Assembly: GCA_003222395.1 (NCBI GenBank)
Contig: QHWB01000040.1
Location: 126,573-190,572, forward strand
Source: Acidobacteriota bacterium
GTDB lineage: Bacteria; Acidobacteriota; Vicinamibacteria; Vicinamibacterales; CAVVIG01
DNA: 64,000 bases
Direction: 5' to 3'
The notes below the pieces were generated by a model. The model did not search any database. It saw nothing but the letters and a program-made list of their open reading frames with translations, and was not told the DNA's origin. Shown in pieces: positions 3,540 to 53,806 of the stretch (the stretch's first letter is position 1; each line of letters starts with the position of its first letter). The translations under genes and the position numbers were made by a program.

Positions 3540-4901
3540 TTAGGCTAACAGAATTACCTGAAGGTCGCCGACGTTGGTGCCGGTCGGACCTGTCCGGATG
3601 AGATCGCCGATCGCGTCGAAAAACGCGTAGGCATCGTTGTTCGAAAGAGACCGCTGCGCGTCGAGTCCGGCGGCCGCCGCGCGACTGCGCGTCGTCTGGT
3701 CGACGAAGGCGCCGGCGGCGTCCGTGGGCCCGTCGATACCGTCAGTGCCGACGCTCGCCACCACCGCTGCGGAGGCGGTTTCGGCGAGCGGCTCCGCCGC
3801 CGCGAGCGCAAACTCCTGATTGCGACCGCCTTTGCCGGAACCGGTCACGTTCACCGTCGTCTCGCCGCTCGAGACGATGCACGCCGGTCGCGCGATGCCG
3901 GCGGCACGCGCGAAGGCAGCGCCGAGATGCGACGCCGACGCCGTGCGCGCTTCGCCGGTCACCGCATCGTCGATTGAGATGACCTGGTATCCGAGCGCGA
4001 TCGCCTGATCTGCGGCGCCTCGCATCGCATCGCGCCGCGATCCAATGAGCCGCGTCCTGGCGTTGGCGACGCGCGCGTCGCCGGGCTTCGGCGTTTCGGC
4101 AATCGATCCGTGCACGCCCGCGTGAAGGCGCGACACCACGCCGGCGGGATACGCATGCTCGCCGCCGAATCGCCGCAGGATGTCGAGCGCGTCCTGGAAC
4201 GTGCTCGCGTCGGCGACGGTCGGACCCGAGGCGATGACGCTCAAATCGTCGCCGACGACATCCGAAATCGCCAGCGCGATGCAGGCGGCGCGCGTGCGCG
4301 CGGCGAGCCAGCCGCCCTTGATCGCCGACAGGTGCTTCCGCACCGTGTTCAGGGCGTAAATGTCGGCGCCGGCGCGAAGCAGACGATCGGTCGTGGCCCG
4401 CTTGTCGTCGAGCGTCACCCCGTCGGCCGGCACAGCCATCAGTGCGGACGCGCCTCCCGAAATCAACACCAGGAGCGTGTCGTCCTCCGACAGCGATTCG
4501 GCAATCGCGAGCGCTTTGCGTCCGCCCTCTTCGCTGCGCGCATTCGGCGTCGGGTGTCCGCCGACGATGAACTCGCAAGCGCGGCGTAGGGGCGGAGCTT
4601 GCTCAGCCCACGATGTCGGCGTGGCCTCAGGCGTCGGTGGGGCCTCGGGCATCGGTGCGACAACCGGCCGAGCAAGCTGGGCCCCCACGACGAGGCCCGA
4701 TAGCGATCCAAGGCGTTTCGCGGCGGCGGCCGCCATCGCGGGCGCAGCTTTACCCGCGGCGATCACCGCCACGTGTTCCAAACGCGGCGCGTCCTCGCCG
4801 GTCAGTGCGCGATCGACGAGAACATCGGCGGCGCACGCACGAATCCCGGCCCGGATGATGGCCAGGAGGTCTTGTCGAAGTTCGGCGAGAGAACGCGTCA
4901 G
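3540..4901 (-). CDS. Glycerate 2-kinase (MOFRL/DUF4147 family) carrying an in-frame palindromic insert
   Basis: This family phosphorylates D-glycerate to 2-phosphoglycerate. The reading frame contains GKAAPAM, GGHPTPN, ISGGASALM, NTVRKHLSAIKGG and the C-terminal MOFRL part with GTDGIDGPTDAAGA. The first ATG/GTG/TTG is a TTG at 4781, but the same frame continues upstream with a typical N-terminal helix (LAELRQDLLAIIRAGIRA). It opens at a CTG at 4901 that overlaps the preceding stop by four bases, so I place the start there; 4781 is the conservative alternative. An extra Pro/Ala-rich stretch of about 33 residues between GLVVGAQLARP and EFIVGGHP is encoded by an imperfect palindrome (4587-4687) and is not part of the usual fold. 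Confidence 0.85.
   Translation of the reverse strand: MTRSLAELRQDLLAIIRAGIRACAADVLVDRALTGEDAPRLEHVAVIAAGKAAPAMAAAAAKRLGSLSGLVVGAQLARPVVAPMPEAPPTPEATPTSWAEQAPPLRRACEFIVGGHPTPNARSEEGGRKALAIAESLSEDDTLLVLISGGASALMAVPADGVTLDDKRATTDRLLRAGADIYALNTVRKHLSAIKGGWLAARTRAACIALAISDVVGDDLSVIASGPTVADASTFQDALDILRRFGGEHAYPAGVVSRLHAGVHGSIAETPKPGDARVANARTRLIGSRRDAMRGAADQAIALGYQVISIDDAVTGEARTASASHLGAAFARAAGIARPACIVSSGETTVNVTGSGKGGRNQEFALAAAEPLAETASAAVVASVGTDGIDGPTDAAGAFVDQTTRSRAAAAGLDAQRSLSNNDAYAFFDAIGDLIRTGPTGTNVGDLQVILLA
4587..4687. repeat. Palindromic element inserted in frame in the glycerate kinase gene
   Basis: The arms at 4587-4608 and 4666-4687 are inverted copies (about 17 of 22 matching) sharing the core GAGCTTGCTC / GAGCAAGCT. 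The reading frame stays open through the element and encodes a Pro/Ala-rich segment absent from the expected family alignment. This resembles protein-coding palindromic elements known from Rickettsia, but I infer that only from structure. Confidence 0.6.
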
Positions 4902-51393: not shown

Positions 51394-51439
51394 ACGCGCC
51401 CGAGCGGACGCAATACCAATCCAGGTCGATCGACCATGG

Positions 51440-51447
51440 ATACTGAA
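51440..51447. repeat. Target-site duplication, left copy (ATACTGAA)
   Basis: ATACTGAA is repeated directly at 53799-53806, immediately outside both inverted repeats of the transposon. Eight bases is the usual duplication size for the IS1595 family. Confidence 0.75.
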
Positions 51448-51469
51448 CGGGACTGAGTAGTTGTTGAAA
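51448..51469. repeat. Left terminal inverted repeat of the IS1595-type element
   Basis: Ends in the 13-base core GTAGTTGTTGAAA, exactly matched in inverse orientation at 53777-53789. Over 22 bases, 18 positions match. Confidence 0.8.
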
Positions 51470-53499: not shown

Positions 53500-53584
53500 G
53501 CCCCGGTGCTGGAACTGGTAGACAGGCCCGCCTTGCACGCGGGTGACCAATCCGGTCGTCCGGGTCCGATCCCCGGCCGGGGCA
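53500..53584 (+). tRNA. Class II tRNA, leucine-type body with UGC (alanine) anticodon
   Basis: The 85-base cloverleaf is complete. The acceptor stem pairs GCCCCGG (53500-53506) with CCGGGGC (53577-53583), discriminator A. The D arm is CTG/CAG around loop GAACTGGTAGA, the leucine tRNA loop. The anticodon stem pairs CCCGC (53527-53531) with GCGGG (53539-53543), loop CTTGCAC, anticodon TGC at 53534-53536. The variable arm is long, stem GACC/GGTC. The T stem pairs CCGGG with CCCGG around loop TCCGATC, with C in place of the usual T55. CCA is not encoded. Pair 3:70 is C:G, so the G3:U70 alanine identity element is absent. LeuRS charging is the likeliest outcome, which would misread alanine codons. 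Confidence 0.85.
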
Positions 53585-53603
53585 CTCCCGTCAGAATACC
53601 ACT

Positions 53604-53729
53604 ATGACGAAACGCCAGAAACCGAAGCGCGGCAAGCGCAAGGCCGGACGACCTGCAGAGCGGTTGGTCATCACCGAAGACCCGCAGACCGCCCTCGACA
53701 AACTCCTGAAGAAGAAGCCCACCAACTGA
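53604..53729 (+). CDS. Transposon passenger microprotein, basic with GRP motif (41 aa)
   Basis: Begins 20 bases after the tRNA. The N-terminus (MTKRQKPKRGKRKAGRPAER) is very basic with an AT-hook-like KAGRP, followed by an acidic-helical C-terminus (EDPQTALDKLLKKK). It has one GCA codon (Ala18). It could bind DNA, the transposon ends or the tRNA transcript. It ends 47 bases before the right inverted repeat. Confidence 0.65.
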   Translation: MTKRQKPKRGKRKAGRPAERLVITEDPQTALDKLLKKKPTN

Positions 53730-53776: not shown

Positions 53777-53798
53777 TTTCAACAACTACCTAGTCTGG
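53777..53798. repeat. Right terminal inverted repeat of the IS1595-type element
   Basis: Inverse copy of 51448-51469, including an exact 13-base core (TTTCAACAACTAC). Confidence 0.8.
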
Positions 53799-53806
53799 AT
53801 ACTGAA
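53799..53806. repeat. Target-site duplication, right copy (ATACTGAA)
   Basis: Direct repeat of 51440-51447 next to the right inverted repeat; three further bases (TGG) before each copy also match. Confidence 0.75.

Follow-up and report, generated by a model that had tools for sequence, protein, structure and literature searches.

The window, by which we mean the whole 64-kb stretch analysed here, contains a mobile element of the IS1595 family (Table 1). Its transposase, with a DDE domain and a zinc ribbon, lies upstream of a tRNA gene and on the opposite strand, and the tRNA gene is followed at 19 nt by a small basic open reading frame (ORF) and preceded at 22 nt by a cargo ORF, all three on the same strand. 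The inverted repeats enclose the transposase, both ORFs and the tRNA gene, and perfect copies of the 11-mer TGGATACTGAA flank the element at both ends, no more than 3 nt from the inverted repeats. In the IS1595 family, the target duplication is 8 bp. The features expected of an IS1595 transposon were found, namely a DDE transposase of the family with a zinc ribbon, inverted repeats and a target duplication. Given the inverted repeats and the flanking TGGATACTGAA copies, the block most likely arrived as one unit. The tRNA is transposon cargo and one of a family with several anticodons. The earlier note had described the tRNA correctly, but its location inside an IS1595-family transposon had been missed.

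Table 1. Features of the IS1595-family element in the window
Feature	Position	Strand	Basis
Left direct repeat copy TGGATACTGAA (target duplication, 8-11 nt)	51437..51447	.	Identical to 53796-53806
Left terminal inverted repeat	51451..51469	.	19 nt, 89% complementary to 53777-53795
IS1595-family transposase, 336 aa	51772..52782	-	PF12762 E 3.3e-33; PF12760 E 8e-12; NF033547 E 6.9e-52
Cargo ORF, 153 aa	53016..53477	+	Without convincing family match; slot content varies between elements
Class II Leu-type tRNA gene, anticodon TGC	53500..53584	+	ARAGORN, covariance models, covariation
Anticodon TGC (cognate codon GCA)	53534..53536	+	Position 35 of the gene; identical triplet in six aligned TGC elements
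41-aa basic ORF, conserved tRNA partner	53604..53729	+	Sequence, relatives
Right terminal inverted repeat	53777..53795	.	Pairs with 51451-51469
Right direct repeat copy TGGATACTGAA	53796..53806	.	Identical to 51437-51447

ARAGORN reported a single tRNA gene in the 64-kb window, at 53500-53585(+), with the anticodon TGC and the label "tRNA-Ala", which follows from that anticodon. By its sequence, the gene has a fully paired 7-bp acceptor stem (GCCCCGG/CCGGGGC, with C3:G70), a D arm with a 3-bp stem (CTG-GAACTGGTAGA-CAG) and the Leu-like loop GAACTGGTAGA, a 5-bp anticodon stem (CCCGC/GCGGG) with the loop CTTGCAC, a long variable arm with a 4-bp stem, and a T arm with a 5-bp stem and the loop TCCGATC, hence C55. 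The 3′ end has A73, and CCA is not encoded. Every structural detail proposed earlier, that is, a full 7/5 class II cloverleaf with a long variable arm and a Leu-type D loop, holds by sequence, and the discriminator A73, C:G at 3:70, the TGC anticodon (also by ARAGORN) and the unusual C55 are all present. MFE folding was unremarkable by itself (z -1.32). The Rfam tRNA model RF00005 did not report the gene at E 1 or at E 10; the class II tRNAs of the host genome scored 52.3-62.9 bits with it. Because of the covariation in the relatives described below, this miss was read as a limit of the model. No sigma-70-like promoter was found when one was looked for. BLAST gave one match in the tRNA's own genome, i.e. 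a single copy, and two search patterns matched it in just one genome among the 162 of the order, a rarity that fits arrival by transposition. A host tRNA was ruled out by the same rarity and by the position inside the transposon.

Six elements with a TGC tRNA were found (the window, L051, L085/L088, L089, L169/L180, and L170/L179). The five besides the window have transposases 66-79% identical, and each has the TGC tRNA and the basic ORF. Four of them (L085, L089, L169, L170) were found by protein queries free of the anticodon, and L051 by a pattern containing TGC. This pattern, a Leu-type D arm plus a TGC anticodon, was run on a collection described as one genome per species (84,980 species) and matched at four loci (L050 to L053). 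Among these, L051, from a metagenome-assembled genome (MAG) labelled Betaproteobacteria, was the sole transposon-borne locus and holds the same element, with transposase, ORF, tRNA, and basic ORF; an IS1595 transposase was not found in the available flanking DNA of the other three. L085 is a viral contig from the transposase search, with a 78% identical transposase and the same gene set as the window, and L089 was among the best 80 of at least 244 viral-contig relatives found by an alignment search (two of the 80 loci repeat L085 and L086). L086/L090 has a 70% identical transposase without a tRNA in the available DNA, which extends about 1 kb upstream of that gene before the contig stops. The basic ORF was searched in 396 genomes of the phylum and matched in nine, comprising L169 and L170 with TGC, L171 with the anticodon TGG, the window itself, L173 (a transposase remnant and a related ORF, no tRNA), L172 (a related ORF with neither transposase nor tRNA in view), and three weak matches inside longer frames. 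Two TGC patterns gave no match on the viral contigs; L085, which is in that collection, has a D arm outside those patterns. BLAST likewise gave no match for the window tRNA or for two basic ORFs in phages and plasmids, nor for the window transposase in plasmids.

The cloverleaf is kept across the homologues of the six related transposons. Among the six TGC tRNAs, 97.9% of 144 paired cells hold, and 21 cells are doubly changed versus 7.4 in shuffles; the joint changes fall in the acceptor, anticodon, variable, and T stems (four of the five helices), and both TGC and C55 are invariant. A wider set of ten tRNAs, four with TGC and six with other anticodons, has 96.7% of 240 cells paired (3.3% unpaired), 70 doubly changed cells versus 23.8 in shuffles, both-sided pair changes in all five helices, and invariant U33 and A37. 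A chance fold was ruled out by this conserved pairing and because the search pattern that matches the window tRNA had no match in 100 shuffles.

The basic ORF stands behind the tRNA in all six TGC elements and in the TGG element L091. It encodes 37-54 aa, in which a basic N-terminal stretch precedes a motif resembling GPxxERLxIxxDP..A...LLKKxP. The 41-aa version of the window had no family match in Pfam, NCBIfam, or PHROGs, and those of the relatives had insignificant family matches only. The order of cargo ORF, tRNA, and basic ORF recurs in L051, L085, and L089. The ORFs before the tRNA in L051, L169, and L170 encode related proteins (25-32% identity), in which we read a putative coiled-coil plus winged-helix architecture; the 153-aa ORF of the window is unrelated to these, and the slot of L085 holds an HTH_3 protein and a 99-aa ORF. 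Since the tRNA, its TGC anticodon and the basic ORF are kept while the cargo of the window and of L085 differs from that of the rest, the tRNA probably belongs to the transposon core, not to the host.

To assign an isotype, a Leu covariance model was built from the seven tRNA-Leu genes of the host genome, and a Ser model from four tRNAs (three host genes and one from a relative). The window tRNA scored 69.0 bits with the former and 40.2 bits with the latter, and the six TGC tRNAs scored 60.1-69.0 and 35.6-43.9 bits, respectively. The Leu-type body claimed earlier is therefore borne out, and G3:U70, on which AlaRS was said to depend, is absent, with C:G at 3:70 in six of six TGC members. Two of the seven host Leu tRNAs behind the model scored 92.6 and 104.6 bits alongside, so the window tRNA is Leu-like but not a plain tRNA-Leu. 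According to the accessible part of PMC9976931, E. coli LeuRS uses A73, A15-U48, G18G19, and A20a, not the anticodon, and this set is present in the window tRNA. The same part of that source states that the G18:U55 contact also matters for leucylation in E. coli. This contact is absent from the window tRNA, since C55, shared by six of six TGC members, breaks it, which counts against leucine charging as far as that text goes. A73 and U48 occur in 19 of the 20 tabulated tRNAs, 18 of which adjoin IS1595 transposases; the exception is the Ser-type tRNA of L183. Leucine is the amino acid expected from these identity rules. A Ser-type tRNA was ruled out for the window by A73 and the two model scores, and an alanine tRNA by identity was ruled out by C3:G70 and the class II body. 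Set against known classes, the gene has the 7/5 class II cloverleaf and long variable arm of tRNA-Leu but TGC in place of a Leu anticodon (A35), and it has a tRNA-Ala anticodon reading GCN but neither G3:U70 nor a class I body. It lacks both the 8/4 or 9/3 acceptor branch of allo-tRNAs, having 7/5, and their Ser identity (G73), having A73; the combination of a Leu-type body with a non-Leu anticodon is that of nev-tRNAs.

Protein searches also found Leu-type tRNAs with the anticodon TGG at IS1595 loci L091, L094, L100, L101, and L171, and with AGG (L105), GGA (L109), CTA (L056), and AGA (L081) at single loci. A Leu anticodon was present in none of the Leu-type tRNAs assigned to IS1595 elements; the two Leu(TAA) sequences seen were outside the element (L118) or in a host gene struck by the element (L114). 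Inverted repeats were detected on either side of the tRNA in the window, L081, L088, L089, L091, L094, L100, L101, and L105 (imperfect repeats at L088, L100, and L101); repeats were sought and not found at L051, L056, and L109, the search covering loci other than L169-L171 and L177-L183. Perfect direct repeats of at least 8 nt flank seven of the 14 elements examined (the window, L081, L091, L092, L093, L114, and L119) and were absent at the other seven (L089, L094, L096, L100, L101, L105, and L118). That IS1595 elements generally carry a tRNA proved wrong: a full-length Leu-type tRNA with a non-Leu anticodon was counted at 8 of 80 viral loci (the best 80 of at least 244 relatives, two of them repeating L085 and L086), 3 of 30 loci of the order (the canonical Ser(GGA) gene of L060 being attributed to the host), and five of the 14 phylum loci (one of them Ser-type), with the window element counted in both the order and the phylum. 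All seven tRNA genes of at least 82 nt that ARAGORN called at the 80 viral loci were no more than 2 kb from the transposase (357,196 bases), versus none farther away (186,210 bases). Scanning directly for TGG Leu-type tRNAs gave seven loci in viral contigs. Four of these (L197-L200) lie beside an IS1595 transposase, L199 being the contig of L100 and L200 that of L094. Of the remaining three, L202 has a similar basic ORF next to the tRNA but no transposase, L203 has neither of the two, and L201 lies in a tRNA array. In the phylum, the TGG pattern matched one of 396 genomes, at the known L171 element. The L171 transposase matched 41 plasmid records and two phage records; none of the four plasmid loci examined had a tRNA-model match or the cargo of tRNA plus basic ORF.

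If GCA were read partly as leucine, conserved alanines should avoid it. We examined this in a 90-row transposase alignment, from which internal stops, proteins below 220 aa and identical proteins were left out (L090, with a broken frame, is absent), by taking the frequency of a site's own residue in the family at the cognate codon minus that at its synonyms. The groups were small, six TGC and five to six TGG transposases; 74 other IS1595 transposases, without L105, L109, L081, and L056, served for comparison, and the Ser-type L183 was in the TGG group for most tests and out of it for the null-clade test. In the six TGC transposases, the family alanine frequency was 0.14 at GCA versus 0.24-0.38 at the other alanine codons, compared with 0.29 versus 0.28-0.33 in the 74 others. 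The difference was -0.217 (0 of 3000 shuffles as low) in the former and -0.015 (p 0.14) in the latter. In the TGG elements, the proline frequency was 0.11 at CCA versus 0.42-0.46 at the other codons, and 0.34 versus 0.31-0.43 in the 74 others, with differences of -0.323 (p 0.0003) and -0.045 (p 0.18), respectively. In the cross-controls, CCA gave +0.095 in TGC elements and GCA was mildly low in TGG elements (-0.07, p 0.04). None of 74 (GCA) and 46 (CCA) null clades, which overlap one another, reached the observed value. Since the six TGC transposases are related, per-sequence shuffles overstate significance; collapsed to columns, p was 0.002-0.004 (GCA) and 0.006-0.016 (CCA). When codons were ranked by adding two shuffle p-values, the top codon was GCA for the TGC elements and CCA for the TGG elements; by raw difference GCA was third of 55, after TTA (6 sites) and TCA, and CCA first of 59. 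Unexplained low shuffle scores were also seen in the TGC elements for TCA, CGA, and AAT, and in the TGG elements for CTC.

At columns 22, 91, 104, and 118, where at least 60% of the others have alanine, the TGC elements use GCG at 20 of 22 sites, GCC at two and GCA at none. GCA sites were richer in L/M/I/V/F among homologues (0.38 vs. 0.20, p 0.0008), as were CCA sites (0.28 vs. 0.14, p 0.015); a slight hydrophobic excess was also seen at CCA sites of the 74 others (0.056, p 0.027). All six TGC transposases have GCA at position 95, where the residue in the others is M in 36, L in 17, I in nine, V in eight, A in two, and T in one (73 of 74 listed). This position is a candidate, and the best site, for a programmed use of the tRNA; the alanine written GCC there in L091, L094, and L177 weighs against a required leucine. 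Among single elements, L105 (AGG) has CCT at two of 14 counted proline codons, both at variable columns, L109 (GGA) has TCC at none of 17 serine codons, L081 (AGA) has TCT at one of 11, and the transposase of L056 (CTA) lacks in-frame TAG codons. Taken together, codon placement supports a tRNA that may act in translation and make its codon unsafe within the element. The earlier proposal that the tRNA inserts leucine at GCA thus gains indirect support from codon placement; its extension by wobble to all GCN codons does not, because the conserved alanines of TGC elements are GCG or GCC, as if GCG were safe.

We therefore weighed several readings, and on balance lean towards a working class II tRNA in the core of an IS1595 sub-lineage, which would be charged with leucine and make GCA ambiguous between alanine and leucine within the element's reach. 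As judged from sequence, charging with leucine, whereby the cognate codon would become unsafe, is most likely. The tRNA would be co-transcribed with the cargo ORF and the basic ORF, excised by host RNase P and 3′ processing, and given its CCA. Host LeuRS, blind to the anticodon, would charge it with leucine, and it would compete at GCA with the host Ala-tRNA(UGC), which is presumed and was not found in the assembly. Wherever the element acted, GCA would be ambiguous between Ala and Leu, and GCG would stay alanine, being read also by the host Ala-tRNA(CGC), whose gene was found in the assembly. The transposase would have adapted by keeping GCA away from conserved alanines, and sister elements would follow the same scheme with a TGG tRNA and CCA codons. 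The element might gain by tuning how active its transposase is, by recoding selected sites (transposase position 95, for example), or by burdening the host or competitors; tuning of the element's own proteins appears the likeliest. A bolder version, which we hold only tentatively and rather doubt, is a private ambiguous code in which GCA or CCA is partly leucine, conserved alanines or prolines use safe synonyms, and some sites, with transposase position 95 as the candidate, need leucine delivered by the tRNA, which would make transposase activity dependent on it.

A tRNA shape could instead serve RNA processing, with RNase P and 3′ processing splitting the message, protecting an end or shielding the element from outside transcription. 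This unlikely alternative fits the place of the tRNA between two same-strand ORFs with short gaps, an order repeated in three relatives, as well as distant elements that place the tRNA elsewhere with other anticodons, e.g., just upstream of the transposase (L056, L081, L171), and shortened tRNA-like sequences near some transposases (L058, L059, L119). Processing needs no fixed anticodon, yet TGC is kept in six elements despite changing stems, four of the five other TGC elements came from protein queries, and the codon footprint tracks the anticodon. The footprint itself might be ordinary codon bias, with non-optimal codons at tolerant sites and a coincidental anticodon match. The small groups (six and five to six) and the third rank of GCA by raw difference speak for such a bias, but neither effect is clear in the 74 others, the opposite group shows a weak effect (GCA) or none (CCA), and no null clade reaches the observed values; we consider coincidence improbable.

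Two further readings seem to us very improbable. The gene could be a true alanine tRNA that AlaRS charges for ordinary decoding, with the TGG genes likewise encoding proline tRNAs served by ProRS, as the anticodon TGC, an A73 compatible with alanine and the lack of a canonical Ala(TGC) gene in the assembly would allow. Against this stand C:G at 3:70 in all six TGC members, the class II body, and the avoidance of the cognate codon at conserved alanines, which is the opposite of what an extra Ala-tRNA would bring. The lack of that gene may have another cause. The host genome has seven Leu, three Ser, and one Tyr tRNA among 44 over the cut-off; Ala(TGC), Ala(GGC), Ile(GAT), and Ser(GGA) were not among these 44, a list that also misses the window tRNA, and 16S rRNA was not found by a search that also missed five of 14 control genomes, so that the assembly may lack the rRNA operon, which often holds Ala(TGC). 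Alternatively, a captured host tRNA-Leu may be drifting in the transposon, its anticodon free to change since nothing reads it. The several anticodons across distant elements, the IS1595 element within a tRNA-Leu gene (L114), C55, and the RF00005 miss all suit drift; the both-sided pair changes in five helices of the wider set and four of five in the TGC set, the mere 3.3% of 240 cells unpaired, the invariant U33 and A37, and the codon footprint do not.

Returning to the favoured reading of a leucine-charged tRNA, the closest likeness is to the nematode nev-tRNAs, which in the available text of PMC4300185 have Leu-type bodies with Gly or Ile anticodons (CCC, UAU), are conserved, and are leucylated in vitro. 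They share the Leu-type class II body and non-Leu anticodon but are nematode genes, whereas the window tRNA is bacterial transposon cargo with a conserved small ORF and a codon footprint. C. elegans nev-tRNAs mature, yet misincorporation was undetectable, which, as far as that text reports, warns against inferring an effect from charging. Allo-tRNAs are described in the accessible portion of PMC7609411 as bacterial class II tRNAs with a mismatched anticodon, acceptor branches of 8/4 or 9/3, and an identity that is Ser or, in some, Ala. The window tRNA resembles them in its bacterial class II body and in an anticodon that does not match its identity, but differs in being 7/5, A73, and Leu-type; the earlier note had set it apart by its 7/5 build, and this distinction stands against that portion of the source.

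Phage- and plasmid-borne tRNAs are likewise moved by mobile elements, and in them anticodon and identity usually match. The Leu tRNAs of viral contig L049 have Leu anticodons and so are matched, unlike the window tRNA. IS1595-family transposons with passenger genes have inverted repeats, a direct repeat at the target, and cargo ORFs. The window element is like them in these respects and in its transposase family, and elements of its type differ from them by the tRNA gene and the conserved 37-54 aa basic ORF. A search of the open-licence PMC literature found no mismatched tRNA carried by a transposon; PMC6941271 mentions, without context in the passage concerned, a single mismatched-isotype tRNA from a Rhodococcus genome. 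Mismatched tRNAs, usually taken for accidents, here appear to be a kept part of mobile elements, where they recur with different anticodons, and where codons in the transposase of the element itself are placed to match. If this is true, a transposon changes the reading of a sense codon in its host; ambiguous decoding could then be tested in a natural example, and codon meanings would have a way to shift. The standard tRNA model can miss such genes.

Several minor observations were made at the collected loci. Leu-type class II tRNA-like sequences with TGC lie outside IS1595 elements at L050 3828-3906 (MAG labelled Bacteroidetes), L052 3407-3493 (MAG labelled Prevotellaceae), and L053 7742-7830 (MAG labelled Clostridia), the last in a stretch that looks prophage-like. 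At L172 1480-1641, the small basic ORF adjoins a gene read as a DNA methyltransferase, in a stretch where no IS1595 transposase was seen. Ser-type class II tRNAs were seen beside an IS1595 element with the anticodon TGG (L183 2674-2758) and, as a second tRNA, inside one with CGC (L094 5722-5808), so leucine is not the sole identity used by these elements. Shortened tRNA-like sequences near IS1595 transposases, which by eye keep the T arm and acceptor with the remainder reduced, occur at L058 2470-2550, L059 2475-2556, L119 2505-2590, and L056 ~1340-1420. The AGA tRNA-like gene at L081 2601-2684 lies within the transposase's open frame, upstream of its likely start. Next to the GGA tRNA of L109, on its strand, lies another tRNA-like match (4666-4751), a weak one that scores ~21 bits with either the Leu or the Ser model. 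At L114 3129-3240, the D loop of a host tRNA-Leu(TAA) gene is interrupted by an IS1595 element whose 24-nt inverted repeats are identical and which is flanked by the 8-nt direct repeat TCTGCCGT; insertion of this kind is a possible route for tRNA capture.
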